This document shows positions 11,129 through 27,616 of a DNA stretch of 37,730 bases, piece by piece (the first letter of the stretch is position 1; each line of letters begins with the position of its first letter). Position numbers and translations under genes: made by a program. The stretch is from Clostridiaceae bacterium (GTDB lineage: Bacteria > Bacillota > Clostridia > DSM-8532). The stretch is from positions 1 through 37,730 of the forward strand of contig JAAYNX010000041.1 in NCBI GenBank assembly GCA_012520615.1, written 5' to 3'. The notes beneath the pieces were generated by a model that worked only from the letters and a program-made list of their open reading frames with translations, was not told the origin of the DNA and ran no database searches.

Positions 11129-11570
11129 CCATAATAAAGATAACCTCTACATTTCTAGGGCATACTGTACGAAAACCGTTTTGGCATGCAGATTTTTATA
11201 TTTGATTATACAATCGTGAATTAGCGGCGTGGCTGCTACGATTTAAAGCGAAGCATGGCTTGCGTAGCGAGCGCGACTTGAAAACCGGATGTTTTCACGG
11301 AGCGCTAAATCGTTGCAGGCAACAGCCGCTATATTTGGTACCATGCTTCGCTCCTAGGAGACAGTAGTAGCACCCATGTAAGGCTTGCCCAAGAAGACAA
11401 AGTCTAATTGGTTGCAAGCTACTGCGCAGCGAGTTTTCGTATAATATGTATGTGGCAGATATGAATTGCTATTTCCCGCAAAACGGGAAGTAAGTACTAT
11501 TTTTAAGGTTCCTTTCATATAATTTTAGTACCCCGATTTACTTAAGACAAAATTTATGGAGGAACCATAC
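11129..11570. other. 442-bp gap between the AAA+ gene and spoIIE
   Basis: No plausible coding region. Most of it is a structured element (11161-11448). To its right is a hairpin TTCCCG/CGGGAA (11473-11489), then a lone TATAAT (11518-11523) with no matching -35 before spoIIE. I see no clear Spo0A box. Confidence 0.6.
11161..11448. mobile_element. MITE-like structured element with terminal inverted repeats
   Basis: Ends are 16-bp inverted repeats matching at 14 of 16 positions (11161-11176, CATACTGTACGAAAAC; 11433-11448). Inside are an imperfect ~30-bp inverted repeat (11222-11250 with 11302-11331, both TAGCGGC... arms), a perfect 11-bp pair GCGAAGCATGG (11248-11258) with CCATGCTTCGC (11341-11351), a central hairpin GAAAAC-CGGAT-GTTTTC (11280-11296) and GTTGC-AG-GCAAC (11312-11323). 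It has no ORF. Its left arm recurs at 30225-30254, so at least part of it is a dispersed repeat. I could not find a clear target-site duplication. Confidence 0.55.
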
Positions 11571-13895
11571 ATGGAAAATATAACACTACTAAAGAACGAA
11601 AAAAGGTTTTTTAAATATACTAGTTATCACCTTTCGAAAATCAAACAGCATCATCTCATCGGCTTTCTAATCTGCTTTGTTTTTTCCAGAGCAAATCTTT
11701 TTGGTGTTATAAGGCCTTTTACATCGGCGTTCTATGTTTCTGCCGGGTTTAGCAGAATTTCAAAAGTAATAGCAATAACTTCAATTACTTTTGGCAACGC
11801 TATCTTTACTAATTTTTATGAGACCATAAGGCAGCTTCTGGCTTTGATACTTTTTGAGGTTCTTATAAATATTATACTAAGTAACAGTGCAAAAAACGAT
11901 TCGGCTTTTGCTCGATCTGTATTAATGTCATTTATTATCGGTCTTACCGGCCTTATTAGAGGTGCTGTTCAGGGATTTCATCTATATGATTTGGTGGTTT
12001 CACTTCTAAGTGCCGTCATGGTCTTATCCTTTTCTTTAGTTCTGGCTCCCGGGATTGAAAACTTCAGAGACATAAAAAAGAATAGTGCCATTGATGGGAA
12101 AAAGCTGTTTTCTAGGTCAATTTTATTAGGCGTTATTATTATAAGTCTCCAAGGCATAATGGTATGGAATTGTGAGTTGGGTACTGTTTTGGCCGGACTA
12201 GCAGTAATTGTTATTGCAAGACATAAGGGCAGCAGTCAGGGAGCATTAATCGGTGTGATACTAGGAATAGTTATTTCTATATATGATATTCCGGGAGCTC
12301 TTGCGGTTCCCGGCATGTTTGCATTAGCTGGCGCTGCGGCAGGGATTCCAGTAAAAACACGTACATTTACTGTTACACTATGGACATTGGTAATAATTTT
12401 CTTTTCAGGGCTTTCTGTTCTGGAGGGCGGCCTTATAGTGAAGTATTATGAAGCTCTGACTTCGGGGATTCTGTTTTTGTTTATACCTAAAAAAGTAGTT
12501 AGTTATGTCAGTGATAAATTTATCGGATTTCGAGAGAAATCAGAAAATATCGCTATATGTGAATCAAAACAAACCCATGAGGCTGCCGATAAGCTATTTG
12601 TCTTGGGTAAGGCCTTGTCTCGGGTATCCAGAAGTATAGAAGAAACAATTTTGGATGATGAAGATGATACAAGTTATGTTATCCAATGGATAATTGAGGC
12701 AGTGGCTGAAAGGGCATGTAATCGCTGCAGTATGTGTGACAGATGTTGGAACACCTACTTCTATAAGACCTATAAATTAATAGAAGAAACATTGTCCAAT
12801 TTGAAAATGGATGAAAACGGTCAAATGGAAATCCCGGCTTGGTTTAAAACGACTTGTACAAAATCTGAAAAATTTATTGAAGCTCTGGAAACAGCCTATT
12901 CGGTTTATAAATCTGATAAGGTTTGGAGACAAAAGTTTAAGGAAAGCCAAGCTCTTCTTTGTAAGCAGGCAAATATAATTTCCGGCAGCGTCATAGCACT
13001 TGCACGAAATCTTGTTGATAATGAGGAGCGGGATTATGAAACTGAAAACAGGCTTCTTAAAGTTGCCGGAAGCAGAGGCATACCTGTTTCGGGTTTTCGT
13101 TACCATAACAAGTATGATTCTAAGCCCTATTTAGAGGTTCTATTAGAAACAATAAGTAAAATTAATGTAGATTATCTGGATGAAATAGTGCAGCAGAATA
13201 TTCAGAATAATTTTATCAGGACAGGTGAGTGCAGGAGAAATTTTCTTGGGCATACTGTTTTAAGGTATACTAAAAAGCCAAGGTATAAGACAGTTACAGG
13301 AGTGGCGCGCACTGTCAGAGAAACCTCCGTTATATCCGGGGACAATTTTACATTTTTTATAACGTGCCAAGGTATTCATATAAGTGCAATCAGTGATGGT
13401 ATGGGCAGTGGTAAGCAGGCCGATAAGTTTAGCCGGACTGCTATTCAGATATTGGAGAGTTTATTAGAGGACGGAATAGAAGTTGGCCAAGCAATAAGGT
13501 TATTAAATCTGTACTTAAATATGAAAGGTGAAAATGAAAGATTAGCAACGATTGATTTATGCTCAATAGACCTTTCTACCGGAGCGGCATCCTTTTACAA
13601 GTATGGTGCATCGTTATCCTTTGTGAAAAGACGATATGGTACAGATGAAATAAACACCTCTACACTGCACTATAAGCCATTTACCATAACTGGAGGCGAC
13701 TTTGTTGTAATGATATCAGACGGTGTTCTTGAGGCTTTTTCTGTTTTAGGAGAGACTTCGGGGCTAAAAAAATATATTGAGAGCATTGATACTATAAATG
13801 CTCAACTTATGGCCGAAGGTATTTTAGCCGAAGCTAAAAGCCGTAGCCAAGGTAAACATGATGATATGACAGTTTTGGTGACAAAACTCTGGTAA
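11571..13895 (+). CDS. spoIIE: Stage II sporulation protein E, PP2C phosphatase
   Basis: A 774-residue membrane-anchored serine phosphatase. In the family it dephosphorylates SpoIIAA to release sigma-F in the forespore and interacts with FtsZ at the polar septum. The N-terminal third (about residues 25-325) is a set of around ten hydrophobic segments; a central regulatory region holds a cysteine cluster C383-x2-C386-x2-C389-x2-C392; the C-terminal PP2C domain has metal-binding ISDGMGSGKQAD (D609) and KHDDMTVLV (D764, D765). The ATG at 11556 overlaps the Shine-Dalgarno GGAGG (11558-11562), so ATG 11571 is chosen. It ends 2 bp from the end of the convergent murC gene, with no terminator between them. 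Confidence 0.95.
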   Translation: MENITLLKNEKRFFKYTSYHLSKIKQHHLIGFLICFVFSRANLFGVIRPFTSAFYVSAGFSRISKVIAITSITFGNAIFTNFYETIRQLLALILFEVLINIILSNSAKNDSAFARSVLMSFIIGLTGLIRGAVQGFHLYDLVVSLLSAVMVLSFSLVLAPGIENFRDIKKNSAIDGKKLFSRSILLGVIIISLQGIMVWNCELGTVLAGLAVIVIARHKGSSQGALIGVILGIVISIYDIPGALAVPGMFALAGAAAGIPVKTRTFTVTLWTLVIIFFSGLSVLEGGLIVKYYEALTSGILFLFIPKKVVSYVSDKFIGFREKSENIAICESKQTHEAADKLFVLGKALSRVSRSIEETILDDEDDTSYVIQWIIEAVAERACNRCSMCDRCWNTYFYKTYKLIEETLSNLKMDENGQMEIPAWFKTTCTKSEKFIEALETAYSVYKSDKVWRQKFKESQALLCKQANIISGSVIALARNLVDNEERDYETENRLLKVAGSRGIPVSGFRYHNKYDSKPYLEVLLETISKINVDYLDEIVQQNIQNNFIRTGECRRNFLGHTVLRYTKKPRYKTVTGVARTVRETSVISGDNFTFFITCQGIHISAISDGMGSGKQADKFSRTAIQILESLLEDGIEVGQAIRLLNLYLNMKGENERLATIDLCSIDLSTGAASFYKYGASLSFVKRRYGTDEINTSTLHYKPFTITGGDFVVMISDGVLEAFSVLGETSGLKKYIESIDTINAQLMAEGILAEAKSRSQGKHDDMTVLVTKLW

Positions 13896-22353: not shown

Positions 22354-22471
22354 TTAGAGCTTATTGGCTTCATATGGAGTTTTAAAGCAGGCAGTTATCG
22401 GATAAATTCTTGTTATCAATATTGATTTTCTCCAGTATGATGTAGCAGGAATAAAATACTCAGGAGTAATG

Positions 22472-23302
22472 ATGAACGTAGGAATCCTTCTGCCTGTCGA
22501 AAAAAAGAGGTGGAGGCCTGTCACACTTAAAACATACCAAATTGAAGTTATTACCGGTCTTAATTTGGTGGTCTGTCTATTGCCCTGTACAGAAACCGGG
22601 GCAAGGTACCGCCCGAGTTATAGAAAAAGACTCAAGGCCAAGCTGGATAGGGTTTTTGAAGCGCAAAAGGCTTGGCCGGTTCTGGAGCATCCCGATATCG
22701 GTGGGTTTTATCAGGTTGATACGTCGGTTTTTGTAGAGTTATTGAAGGAATTAGCTTTGCAGCGATTCTACGAAATTTTAGGATTAATTAAGGGTGTAGG
22801 TCCCTTAATTAATAAGGAAATACTTGTCACGGGATCATCTGAATATCTTGAGCACGCTATTGAAATACTTATCACAAAAGTGAAAACAATTAATATACTG
22901 ATACCTAAAGGAGTAAGCGAACCGATTGAAGCTGAAAAAGCTTTTTTAGAAACAGGGATACCGGTTCATATTACAACAGATTACCAGGTGTTGAACCGAA
23001 CCGGTATATGGCTTAGATTTCCTGATGACAATGAAAACTTTGATGTGTTGCCCCAAAAGTTTAAAGGTACAATAGTAGATTTTGGAGCCATGAAGGTAAT
23101 TGATACAAAATCACAAAAGATTTTCAATATTGGCATAGAGTTCTCTGATAGCATTAAGAAAAGACTAGGGAAACACCTGTTATGTACTTGGAAAGAAGGA
23201 GTACTTGAAGGCTTTATGCTGCTTGTATGCTCAAACGCTTGGGATGTAAGCGATACAGAGGCATTTAGGCGGCTAGAAATGCGATTTGCGTTTCTTTCTT
23301 GA
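22472..23302 (+). CDS. Protein of unknown function between guaB and greA
   Basis: A soluble protein of 276 residues that I do not recognise. It has no signal peptide or membrane segment. Residues around 115-150 (KEILVTGSSEYLEHAIEI, then TKVKTINILIP) resemble one strand-loop-helix of a Rossmann-like fold, but without a usable GxGxxG. The C-terminal region is rich in short strands (GTIVDFGAMKVIDTKSQKIF). Codon use and GC match the neighbours. AGGAG at 22462-22466 fits the second ATG (22472) better than the first (22469). The stop codon overlaps the greA -35. It may be cotranscribed with guaB; function open. Confidence 0.75.
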   Translation: MNVGILLPVEKKRWRPVTLKTYQIEVITGLNLVVCLLPCTETGARYRPSYRKRLKAKLDRVFEAQKAWPVLEHPDIGGFYQVDTSVFVELLKELALQRFYEILGLIKGVGPLINKEILVTGSSEYLEHAIEILITKVKTINILIPKGVSEPIEAEKAFLETGIPVHITTDYQVLNRTGIWLRFPDDNENFDVLPQKFKGTIVDFGAMKVIDTKSQKIFNIGIEFSDSIKKRLGKHLLCTWKEGVLEGFMLLVCSNAWDVSDTEAFRRLEMRFAFLS

Positions 23303-25478: not shown

Positions 25479-25583
25479 GCGCTGATTTTAACATTCAAGT
25501 ACAGGTGAAAATTTAAAGAACACTATAATTTTTACAAAAAAACTGTTAAAATAATATGAACAATGGTTTTTGGAGGGTGTAAA

Positions 25584-25898
25584 ATGTTTGAGTTGAGTAC
25601 TGAGGGCAATGATGGTCAGAACTATATCATTGCGATTAAGGGTGAAATTGATATTTATTCGGCTCCTGAGTTTAAAGAAAGCCTCTCTCAATCCATTAAC
25701 GGTGTACAACAGGATATAGTCTTGGATTGCAGCGAACTGTCCTATATTGATAGTATGGGGCTGGGAATCTTAGTTGGTGCATTAAAGCGTGTCAGAGAAA
25801 AAGAACATAATATTATAATAAGAAACCCAAGAAGTACCGTACGCAAACTCTTTAAGATTACCGGTCTGGATAAGGCGTTTATTATTGAGGAGGTCTGA
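25584..25898 (+). CDS. STAS-domain anti-sigma factor antagonist (RsbV/SpoIIAA-like)
   Basis: A 104-residue single STAS domain. The phosphorylation loop is ELSYIDSMGLGIL, with S57 the expected target of an anti-sigma kinase; the preceding IVLDCS strand is standard. In such systems the unphosphorylated form binds the anti-sigma factor and frees the sigma factor. GGAGGG at 25572-25577 fixes ATG 25584 over an earlier in-frame ATG at 25563. It is the first gene of a four-gene cluster (25584-27576) and ends 3 nt before the next gene. It could be an RsbV or SpoIIAA relative; the sigma gene nearby favours RsbV. Confidence 0.88.
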   Translation: MFELSTEGNDGQNYIIAIKGEIDIYSAPEFKESLSQSINGVQQDIVLDCSELSYIDSMGLGILVGALKRVREKEHNIIIRNPRSTVRKLFKITGLDKAFIIEEV

Positions 25899-25901
25899 AT
25901 A

Positions 25902-26288
25902 ATGAATATAATGGACACAGTTTCTGTGCTCATTCCACTGAAAGCTGAATACGTTAGTATTGCCCGTCTCACAGCTTCAGGAATAGCCAGCAGGCTCGGT
26001 TTTGATATAGATACCATTGAAGATATAAAAGTAGCTCTGTCAGAGGTATTAGGCAAATTTATTGAAAAGACGCCAGGTGCGGGAAGGGTAAATGTAGATT
26101 TTCTCTGTCTTGACGATGGACTTTCAATTACATTTAATCTTCCTGATTGCAATATACCTTATCTGTTCGATAATGAAATGGACAAGTTTGCATTGGCTAT
26201 TATTAGTTCTCTTATGGACGAGGTTGAAATTGAAAAGCAAGGCCATGGGATGATTAAAATGGTAAAAAAGCTCGGAAAGGCAGTTTGA
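25902..26288 (+). CDS. Degenerate GHKL anti-sigma factor (RsbW/SpoIIAB-like)
   Basis: A 128-residue protein in the place where RsbW or SpoIIAB normally sits. The helix IEDIKVALSEVLGKFIEK aligns with the family N-box (ALSEAxxNAxxH), keeping the glutamate (ALSE) but replacing the Mg2+-binding asparagine with lysine and the histidine with lysine. No DxGxG (G1) box is visible; a remnant of G2, QGHGMIKMVKKLG, remains near the end. ATP binding and kinase activity are therefore doubtful, although sigma or STAS binding could persist. RBS GGAGG (25889-25893) gives good spacing to ATG 25902. It ends one base before the sigma gene, implying coupled translation. Confidence 0.75.
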   Translation: MNIMDTVSVLIPLKAEYVSIARLTASGIASRLGFDIDTIEDIKVALSEVLGKFIEKTPGAGRVNVDFLCLDDGLSITFNLPDCNIPYLFDNEMDKFALAIISSLMDEVEIEKQGHGMIKMVKKLGKAV

Positions 26289-26289
26289 A

Positions 26290-27048
26290 ATGAGCAGGAA
26301 GGCAGAGACATTAAGGACTGATGAGCAGTCTGAAAGAGAAATATTCGAATTATATTACATAAATAGGGATGTTGAAATACGAAACCAAATTGTTTCAAGA
26401 TATATGTACTTAGCCGACATCATTTCAAAGAAATTTATCAACCGCGGGGTAGAGTGTGACGACATCTATCAGGTGGCGTGTGTTGCTCTTATTAATGCTG
26501 TTGAGAGATTTAACACTTCAGAGGACGTCAAATTCGTCAGCTTTGCCACGCCTACGATTATCGGTGAGATAAAGCGATATTTCAGAGATAAGGCATCAGT
26601 TATTCGCATCCCAAGACGTATATATGAGGTTTATCAAAAAGTTAATCAGGCAAGAGAGTATTTGATGCAGCAGCATAAAAGGGCTCCAAGAGTTGATGAG
26701 ATAGCCGAGTATCTAAATATGAAAGAGGAAACGATACTTGAAATAATAGAATCATGGAATGTTTATAATATACAGTCCTTTGACCAAACTGTATTTGATG
26801 AGGATAATCTTGAGCTTCACGAAACTGTTGGCGAAGAGGATGACACCTTTGAGAAAATAAACAATCGTGATTTTCTTGAGAAGGCTATGCACAACTTTGA
26901 CGACACAGAAAAGCAATTCATAAAACTTCGCTTCTTTGAGAATAATACGCAAAAAGAAATTGCCAATTATTTTCATGTTTCTCAGATGTATATTTCACGT
27001 TTAGAAAAAAGGACACTGGAAAAATTCAGAATGATTTTAAAAAAGTAA
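26290..27048 (+). CDS. SigB/SigF-family RNA polymerase sigma factor
   Basis: A 252-residue group 3 sigma factor with regions 2, 3 and 4. Region 2 has ECDDIYQVACVALINAVERFNTSEDVKFVSFATPTIIGEIKRYFRDK, with the GEIKRYFRDK segment characteristic of SigB/SigF/SigG; region 3 has RAPRVDEIAEYLNM; region 4.2 has TQKEIANYFHVSQMYISRLEKRTLEKFR. The sequence looks nearer SigB (general stress) than SigF (forespore) to my eye, for example PTIIGEIKRY and SQMYISRLEKR. The gene is bracketed by two GHKL proteins. It starts 1 nt after the preceding stop. Its regulon is unknown. Confidence 0.88.
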   Translation: MSRKAETLRTDEQSEREIFELYYINRDVEIRNQIVSRYMYLADIISKKFINRGVECDDIYQVACVALINAVERFNTSEDVKFVSFATPTIIGEIKRYFRDKASVIRIPRRIYEVYQKVNQAREYLMQQHKRAPRVDEIAEYLNMKEETILEIIESWNVYNIQSFDQTVFDEDNLELHETVGEEDDTFEKINNRDFLEKAMHNFDDTEKQFIKLRFFENNTQKEIANYFHVSQMYISRLEKRTLEKFRMILKK

Positions 27049-27058
27049 AATAGGGTAT
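27035..27058 (+). promoter_or_regulatory. Possible SigB-type promoter before the second anti-sigma kinase
   Basis: TTTTAA (27035-27040), 12-bp spacer, GGGTAT (27053-27058), one mismatch from the Bacillus sigma-B consensus GTTTAA-N12/15-GGGTAT. It overlaps the end of the sigma gene. In AT-rich DNA the -35 carries little weight. Confidence 0.35.
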
Positions 27059-27120
27059 ATATTATATAGTAATGCTATGAGATATACTCAGTATACGCTT
27101 GCGTTTATGGAGGGTTTTAG

Positions 27121-27576
27121 ATGGTTATGCAGATGGATTATAACCAGGACACAAAAATCTACAGCGAAGATATTCCAACCGATGCTTATGTGGTATGTAA
27201 TGAAGTCAGAAATATTTTAGATATGCTTCAACGCAGATACTTGCTTGATGCCGAGCAATGTTTTGATATAAAAGTTATCTTATGCGAATTATTGCAGAAT
27301 TCTATAAAACATGGAAATGTAAGTGATGTCAGCAAAAAAATTCGTGTGGAGATATGGCTCAAAGAGGCCAGCAGAGTTCTTGGAATAACTATTAAAGATC
27401 AGGGACGTGGTTTTCAACCCGTCAAAACCAGAGATTTTTCTCTGGCAAAACCATTGGACTGTAATCCGGTCAACATGGATGAGTCAGGAAGAGGGCTTTT
27501 AATAGTAAATGAACTATGCGATTGTATGGAATTTAACACCATGGGCAATGCTATTACTGTATTGAAAAGGATATAA
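27121..27576 (+). CDS. GHKL anti-sigma kinase (RsbW-like), intact active site
   Basis: A 151-residue histidine-kinase-fold ATPase of RsbW/SpoIIAB type. All three nucleotide-binding boxes are present: N-box VILCELLQNSIKHGN, with the E, N and H in place, G1 box IKDQGRGF, and G2 box ESGRGLLIVNELCD. Such proteins hold a sigma factor inactive and phosphorylate the STAS antagonist on serine. GGAGGG (27109-27114) sits 6 nt before ATG 27121. It is 72 nt after the sigma gene, with a possible sigma-B-type promoter between, and is followed by a strong terminator. It is the obvious active kinase partner for the STAS protein upstream. Confidence 0.85.
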   Translation: MVMQMDYNQDTKIYSEDIPTDAYVVCNEVRNILDMLQRRYLLDAEQCFDIKVILCELLQNSIKHGNVSDVSKKIRVEIWLKEASRVLGITIKDQGRGFQPVKTRDFSLAKPLDCNPVNMDESGRGLLIVNELCDCMEFNTMGNAITVLKRI

Positions 27577-27594: not shown

Positions 27595-27616
27595 GCCCGG
27601 CCGTGCCGGGCTTTTT
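27595..27616 (+). terminator. Intrinsic terminator ending the sigma cluster
   Basis: GCCCGGC (27595-27601), 3-nt loop CGT, GCCGGGC (27605-27611), then TTTTT. Compact and GC-rich, so probably efficient. Confidence 0.88.

Follow-up and report, generated by a model that had tools for sequence, protein, structure and literature searches.

A degenerate RsbW homologue and a separate GHKL protein as candidate anti-sigma factor and kinase of a SigB-type module widespread in Clostridia

Introduction

In the textbook partner switch, one and the same protein inhibits the sigma factor and phosphorylates the antagonist; the nucleotide state of this protein is believed to influence the choice of partner. 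How such a switch could operate when the protein encoded in the position of the kinase appears to have no site for ATP is the question raised by positions 25584–27576 of a 37,730-nucleotide stretch of DNA from a Clostridiaceae bacterium (contig JAAYNX010000041.1 of assembly GCA_012520615.1; hereafter, the window). A preliminary description had noted here a STAS antagonist, a degenerate GHKL protein, a sigma factor, and a second, intact GHKL protein, and had considered three roles for the degenerate protein: a pure sigma-binding subunit, a decoy for the antagonist, or a partner in a heterodimer. We have analyzed the four genes and their relatives, and propose that the two jobs of RsbW have been divided between two proteins.

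Results

The open reading frame coordinates were re-checked and, together with family models and alignments, agree with the four-gene order of the preliminary description, all genes being on the forward strand. The module opens with the gene of an RsbV/SpoIIAA-like STAS anti-anti-sigma factor (25584..25898), read from an ATG at 25584 preceded by a ribosome site, GGAGGG, at 25572; the longest open frame begins at 25563. It is followed by the gene of the degenerate RsbW homologue, here termed W1 (25902..26288; 128 aa), by that of a sigma factor of the SigB/SigF/SigG group (26290..27048; 252 aa), and by that of the intact GHKL protein, W2 (27121..27576; 151 aa). Terminator prediction gave none in the gap between the sigma and W2 genes; a strong intrinsic terminator, with seven G-C pairs and a T-run, is predicted 3´ of W2 (27595..27611, forward strand). 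Upstream of the module are greA and the gene of a class II tRNA synthetase (by sequence, lysS), and downstream is a ClpC-type AAA gene. A conserved-looking ORF of 277 aa for which no Pfam match was found lies 5´ of greA (22469–23302).

The STAS protein scores 88 bits against TIGR00377, ant_ant_sig (cut-off 53), and matches TM1442 (1sbo) and RsbV (6m36). The acceptor serine, in the motif YIDSMGLG, is residue 57 when counted from the start at 25584, as described earlier, and residue 64 from 25563; the position equivalent to Ser56 in the DSxG motif is serine in all 147 aligned STAS rows. The sigma factor has complete regions 2, 3, and 4 and passes the cut-off of the SigBFG model TIGR02980 (242.3 vs 234.35 bits), and it is below the equivalog cut-offs for SigB and SigF (179.7 vs 315 and 180.8 vs 321 bits). 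A second, separate operon in the same genome holds spoIIAA-spoIIAB-sigF. A complete SpoIIE of 779 aa (SpoIIE_N and PP2C) is encoded in the window, some 12 kb upstream of the module (11556–13895), and is presumably the SigF phosphatase. Elsewhere in the genome, a membrane protein of MASE3-SpoIIE architecture is a candidate for the phosphatase of the STAS protein. The genome also encodes a small GHKL protein of 162 aa (L214 on C84, 3874–4362) whose gene is clustered with genes of DRTGG-like and Fe-S hydrogenase-like proteins and a PHP gene; it is probably an unrelated regulator of the anti-sigma-like kind.

W1 is related to RsbW by several measures. It matches Pfam HATPase_c_2 with 30.6 bits (cut-off 27.4), its closest relative in the PDB is B. 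subtilis RsbW (6m36; phmmer 3e-12), and it falls below the NCBIfam equivalog cut-offs for RsbW (74.4 vs 145 and 68.7 vs 155 bits). In alignment with RsbW and SpoIIAB, the N-box of W1 reads SEVLGKF as against SEACTNA and SEAVTNA, so that the N-box Asn is replaced, and the DxGxG motif (G1), the lid, and the GxG motif (G2) are missing. An AlphaFold2 model of the W1 monomer (pLDDT 86.9) has the RsbW fold with the lid region absent, and is superimposed on RsbW chain 6m37_C with a Z-score of 19.0 and an rmsd of 1.3 over 112 residues. The suspected loss of the ATP site is thereby borne out, and a displaced site, which the preliminary description had named as evidence against its reading of the 25902–26288 protein, is ruled out by both alignment and model, as is a displaced lid. 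Since the N, G1, and G2 boxes are absent, W1 is an RsbW homologue but not an RsbW kinase, and the homology-based label "RsbW kinase" would be wrong for this protein.

The docking surface has fared differently from the ATP site. In 6m36, the RsbW residues that touch RsbV include Arg23, Asp42, Lys44, Ser48, and Glu49, together with Tyr118 in the C-terminal half (PMC7340262). W1 retains R22, D41, K43, and E48 at the positions of R23, D42, K44, and E49. Among 117 rows with a degenerate W1, the equivalents of R23, D42, and E49 are kept in every one, either Lys or Arg stands at K44, and most rows have Ser at Ser48, which indicates that the N-terminal half of W1 is constrained like that of an active RsbW and that no such constraint acts on the catalytic half. 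Decay of the gene in relatives, the other outcome that would have spoken against the earlier reading, was not seen: dN/dS is 0.05–0.11 within the genus, amino acid changes being clustered in the C-terminal half, and the frame is open and of near-constant length in about 90 loci. With conservation on this scale, neither chance nor a local pseudogene can account for the arrangement. Given its RsbW position and its conserved N-terminal half, W1 can be expected to bind the sigma factor.

In W2, the N, G1, and G2 boxes (ELLQNSIKHG, DQGRGF, and ESGRGL) are complete, as the preliminary description had it, and the protein matches HATPase_c_2 with 63 bits. The catalytic Glu, the N-box Asn, and the second Gly of G2 are found in 101/101 relatives, and the remaining Gly and Asp residues of the ATP site (G1/G2) in at least 97. 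The position of SpoIIAB R20 and RsbW R23, by contrast, is occupied by Val or Ile in 96 of the 101 and by Arg in a single one. Degeneration is thus reciprocal: W1 has lost the ATP site and kept the docking residues, and W2 has kept the ATP site and exchanged the Arg for Val or Ile. The predicted structure of W2 matches SpoIIAB (Z 16.1) and RsbW (Z 15.8), and its relatives form a clade distinct from RsbW, SpoIIAB, and W1 (SH-aLRT 99). The distinct clade rules out an origin of W2 as a duplicate of W1 and implies that it was recruited. W2 probably does not bind sigma.

Occurrence of the same order in related genomes had been set beforehand as a test. The genus and family include 30 other W1-bearing genomes; STAS-W1-sigma-W2 is complete in 27 of them, and the remaining three stop at a contig edge. 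One member of the genus (G003) has no module. The genera with the module include Thermoclostridium, Acetivibrio, Ruminiclostridium, Anaerobacterium, and Herbivorax, and it is thus more widespread in Clostridia than the preliminary description had covered. Two apparent giant sigma ORFs (L033 and L078) proved to be runs of masked N and not fusions. Co-occurrence was assessed in 152 distinct rows, 117 with a degenerate W1 and 35 with an intact protein (26 RsbW-type and nine SpoIIAB-type). A linked W2 accompanies 89 of the degenerate rows vs 0/35 of the intact ones, counts that are not independent because the loci are related. The other 28 degenerate rows comprise 14 with an unlinked W2, six cut by contig ends, three masked by N, and five of one family (f3) that also lacks a linked STAS gene. 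W2 was searched for and not found in family f3, in seven genomes with intact RsbW, or elsewhere in three contig-end genomes cut at the sigma gene (75% and 83% complete, the third small). An Anaeromonas genome has both an intact RsbW and an unlinked W2, showing that W2 can coexist with a kinase-competent RsbW. In all degenerate loci that have a STAS gene, Ser56 and Asp55 are kept, which argues that some kinase still phosphorylates the STAS protein.

Two minor arrangements were noted. The loci of family f3 (L187, L188, L189, L193, and L195) consist of a W1-sigma pair with a partly degenerate W1 and no adjoining STAS gene; L187 lies just 3´ of gyrA. In three other loci (L111, L121, and L123), the STAS, W1, and W2 genes adjoin with no sigma gene between them, and the best sigma match elsewhere in these genomes has at most about 32% identity. 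In L111 and L121, the two of these that were inspected further, the operon continues with a receiver (REC)-SpoIIE phosphatase gene, which would complete the expected set of parts.

W2 appears to have its own promoter. In the window, a SigB-type promoter, ATTTTA-N13-GGGTAT, is predicted on the forward strand before W2 (27034..27058), overlapping the 3´ end of the sigma gene; in this genus the -35 element is weak and overlaps coding sequence. Across loci, GGGTAW occurs in the sigma-W2 gap in 65/83 (13.7 expected from shuffles; absent from the remaining 18/83) and TTT-N14-16-GGGTAW in 48/83 (1.5 expected). In 51 loci that lack W2, the counts for the equivalent stretch 3´ of sigma are 3/51 and 0/51, and there is no enrichment of the motif upstream of STAS, W1, or the sigma gene. 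The motif resembles the C. difficile SigB consensus, WGWTT-N13-17-(G/T)GGTWA (PMC7494833). Unlinked W2 genes have GGGTAW upstream in 12/14 cases and are divergent from a rubredoxin gene in 13/14 (L234–L244 and L295–L297), several also having GGGTAW on the rubredoxin strand, which points to one divergent promoter region that serves both genes under sigma control. On the strength of these matches, W2 is likely to be transcribed by the sigma factor of its own module.

Other possible targets were sought with the same motif. In Ruminiclostridium-group genomes it precedes genes for a thioredoxin, an MCP, and a ZIP transporter, and in another genome a thiol peroxidase gene, the names being read off translated sequences and the sites being sequence matches. 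Across the window genome, GTTT-N14-15-GGGTAW gave 20 matches vs 36 in a reversed control, and no clear regulon emerged. A search for TTT-N14-16-GGGTATATA in the window genus returned W2, one recurrent site located within a coding frame, and, for two species, glgC (L272 and L289, with GGGTATATA boxes 5´ of the gene), making a link between glycogen and the sigma factor possible. Taken together, the predicted sites point to a regulon for oxygen or redox stress that has a built-in shut-off.

Discussion

On the basis of gene order, motif loss and retention, conservation, the correlation with W2, and promoter enrichment, all computed, we propose that the two jobs of RsbW are split between a nucleotide-independent inhibitor, W1, and a sigma-controlled STAS kinase, W2, the latter providing negative feedback; we assign this model a probability of roughly 0.78. 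W1, modeled here as a monomer, would hold sigma through its N-terminal dimer and docking half without nucleotide, and unphosphorylated STAS would dock on the same face of W1 and release sigma. From neighborhood and co-occurrence, we infer that W2 is a dedicated kinase that phosphorylates Ser57 of STAS and so withdraws it from W1. A SpoIIE-type phosphatase, for which the MASE3-SpoIIE protein is the candidate, would undo the phosphorylation. With its own SigB-type promoter, W2 would be made in larger amounts by active sigma, which would then shut itself off and end the response. Of the roles considered at the outset, the pure sigma-binding subunit fits best; the decoy and the heterodimer found no specific support. 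That W2 represents a separate GHKL family with a predicted promoter of its own goes beyond the preliminary description.

The two GHKL proteins could instead form an obligate heterodimer of pseudokinase and kinase, in which W1 docks sigma and STAS and allosterically activates W2, the kinase being active only in the complex. Both proteins are modeled with the GHKL fold, GHKL anti-sigma factors dimerize via beta1/alpha1 (PMC7340262), and the two genes are close in most loci and directly adjoining in L111 and L121. However, in several families W2 is unlinked and apparently has its own sigma-type promoter, such that the stoichiometry would vary, and its separate clade shows that it is not a duplicate of W1. 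In M. smegmatis, moreover, the kinase RsbW2 did not co-purify with RsbW1 (PMC7693655). We regard this arrangement as improbable. The same low standing is given to the notion that W2 serves another pathway, acting on a different STAS substrate or regulating a phosphatase as RsbT does, and is a mere member of the regulon, with some other kinase, or none, phosphorylating the STAS protein. The placement of W2 next to rubredoxin and away from sigma genes in several families would be in line with this, as would the precedent of RsbT, a GHKL kinase whose target is the stressosome instead of RsbV (PMC7522486). Yet, as far as the sequence is readable, W2 accompanies nearly every degenerate W1 that still has a STAS, it is absent from the seven intact-RsbW genomes searched, the STAS serine is invariant, and in L111 and L121 a single operon joins STAS, W1, W2, and a phosphatase.

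A decoy or sponge role of W1 toward STAS, with W2 as the real anti-sigma kinase, accounts for the docking residues that W1 retains but is very unlikely: W1 occupies the RsbW position and is most like RsbW, W2 lacks the conserved docking-helix Arg of RsbW and SpoIIAB in 100/101 rows, and family f3 retains the W1-sigma pair without a linked STAS or W2, which is unexpected for a decoy of STAS. Finally, the reduced and more divergent C-terminal half might recall a decaying pseudogene or a sequencing or alignment artifact, a reading that the open frames, low dN/dS, and invariant docking residues refute almost completely.

The split of inhibitor and kinase proposed here has a biochemical precedent in actinobacteria. 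In M. smegmatis, SigF is bound by RsbW1, which lacks kinase activity, and the phosphorylation of RsfB falls to RsbW2, which does not bind SigF (PMC7693655). The logic of a divided switch is therefore already known. The likeness, as read here from sequence, lies in a single STAS-sigma system with two homologues, of which only one has kinase motifs. The mycobacterial system involves an actinobacterial SigF, whereas in the clostridial module W1 has lost the N, G1, lid, and G2 elements entirely, the predicted kinase is from a separate GHKL clade, and the genes form a conserved four-gene cluster with a SigB-type promoter. What is new is thus the independent lineage, the full loss of the ATP site, the conserved cluster, and the sigma-type promoter on the kinase gene.

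The module shares with rsbV-rsbW-sigB-rsbX of B. subtilis the STAS-RsbW-sigma order, the RsbW fold, the STAS serine, a SigB-type promoter, and a feedback gene directly after sigma, and W2 occupies the position that in Bacillus belongs to rsbX, the gene of a phosphatase that targets the stressosome. In B. subtilis, inhibitor and kinase are combined in RsbW, in contrast to the division between W1 and W2, and the SigB promoter precedes rsbV (PMC7522486), whereas here it precedes W2 with no enrichment before STAS. W2 also resembles RsbT in being a GHKL protein, RsbT being a Ser/Thr kinase that acts on STAS proteins and for which no anti-sigma role is reported; RsbT, however, targets RsbR and RsbS and activates RsbU, while W2 accompanies an RsbV-type STAS and a sigma factor. 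The rsbV-rsbW-sigB operon of C. difficile encodes a clostridial SigB of oxidative stress, with thioredoxin and thiol peroxidase as shared targets (PMC7494833). A single RsbW anti-sigma factor is described in that species, and in the open-access literature we found no description of a split module there or elsewhere in Clostridia.

How the module evolved can be outlined only tentatively. A phylogeny of the sigma factors splits the degenerate loci between two positions, with only moderate rejection of one common clade (AU p 0.028); the tree of the short W1 sequences brings them all together (SH-aLRT 89), possibly through attraction. Anaeromonas looks like an intermediate in which the kinase was gained first, the ATP site being lost later in other lineages. 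A scenario that we hold at slightly less than even odds is that the nucleotide-independent switch arose at least twice in Clostridia, by recruitment of W2 into the sigma regulon followed by loss of the RsbW ATP site, that the kinase step serves as sigma-dependent feedback of an oxygen or oxidative-stress regulon, and that Anaeromonas keeps the intermediate state.

In conclusion, separation of inhibitor and kinase appears to be common to a large part of the Clostridia, many anaerobes among them. In a 2020 review, the function of SigB of C. thermocellum and C. cellulolyticum was listed as "not reported" (PMC7522486). The apparent separation of functions allows inhibition, docking of the antagonist, and phosphorylation each to be examined by itself, and such studies are feasible in genera with cultured members, i.e. 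Ruminiclostridium, Acetivibrio, and Thermoclostridium.
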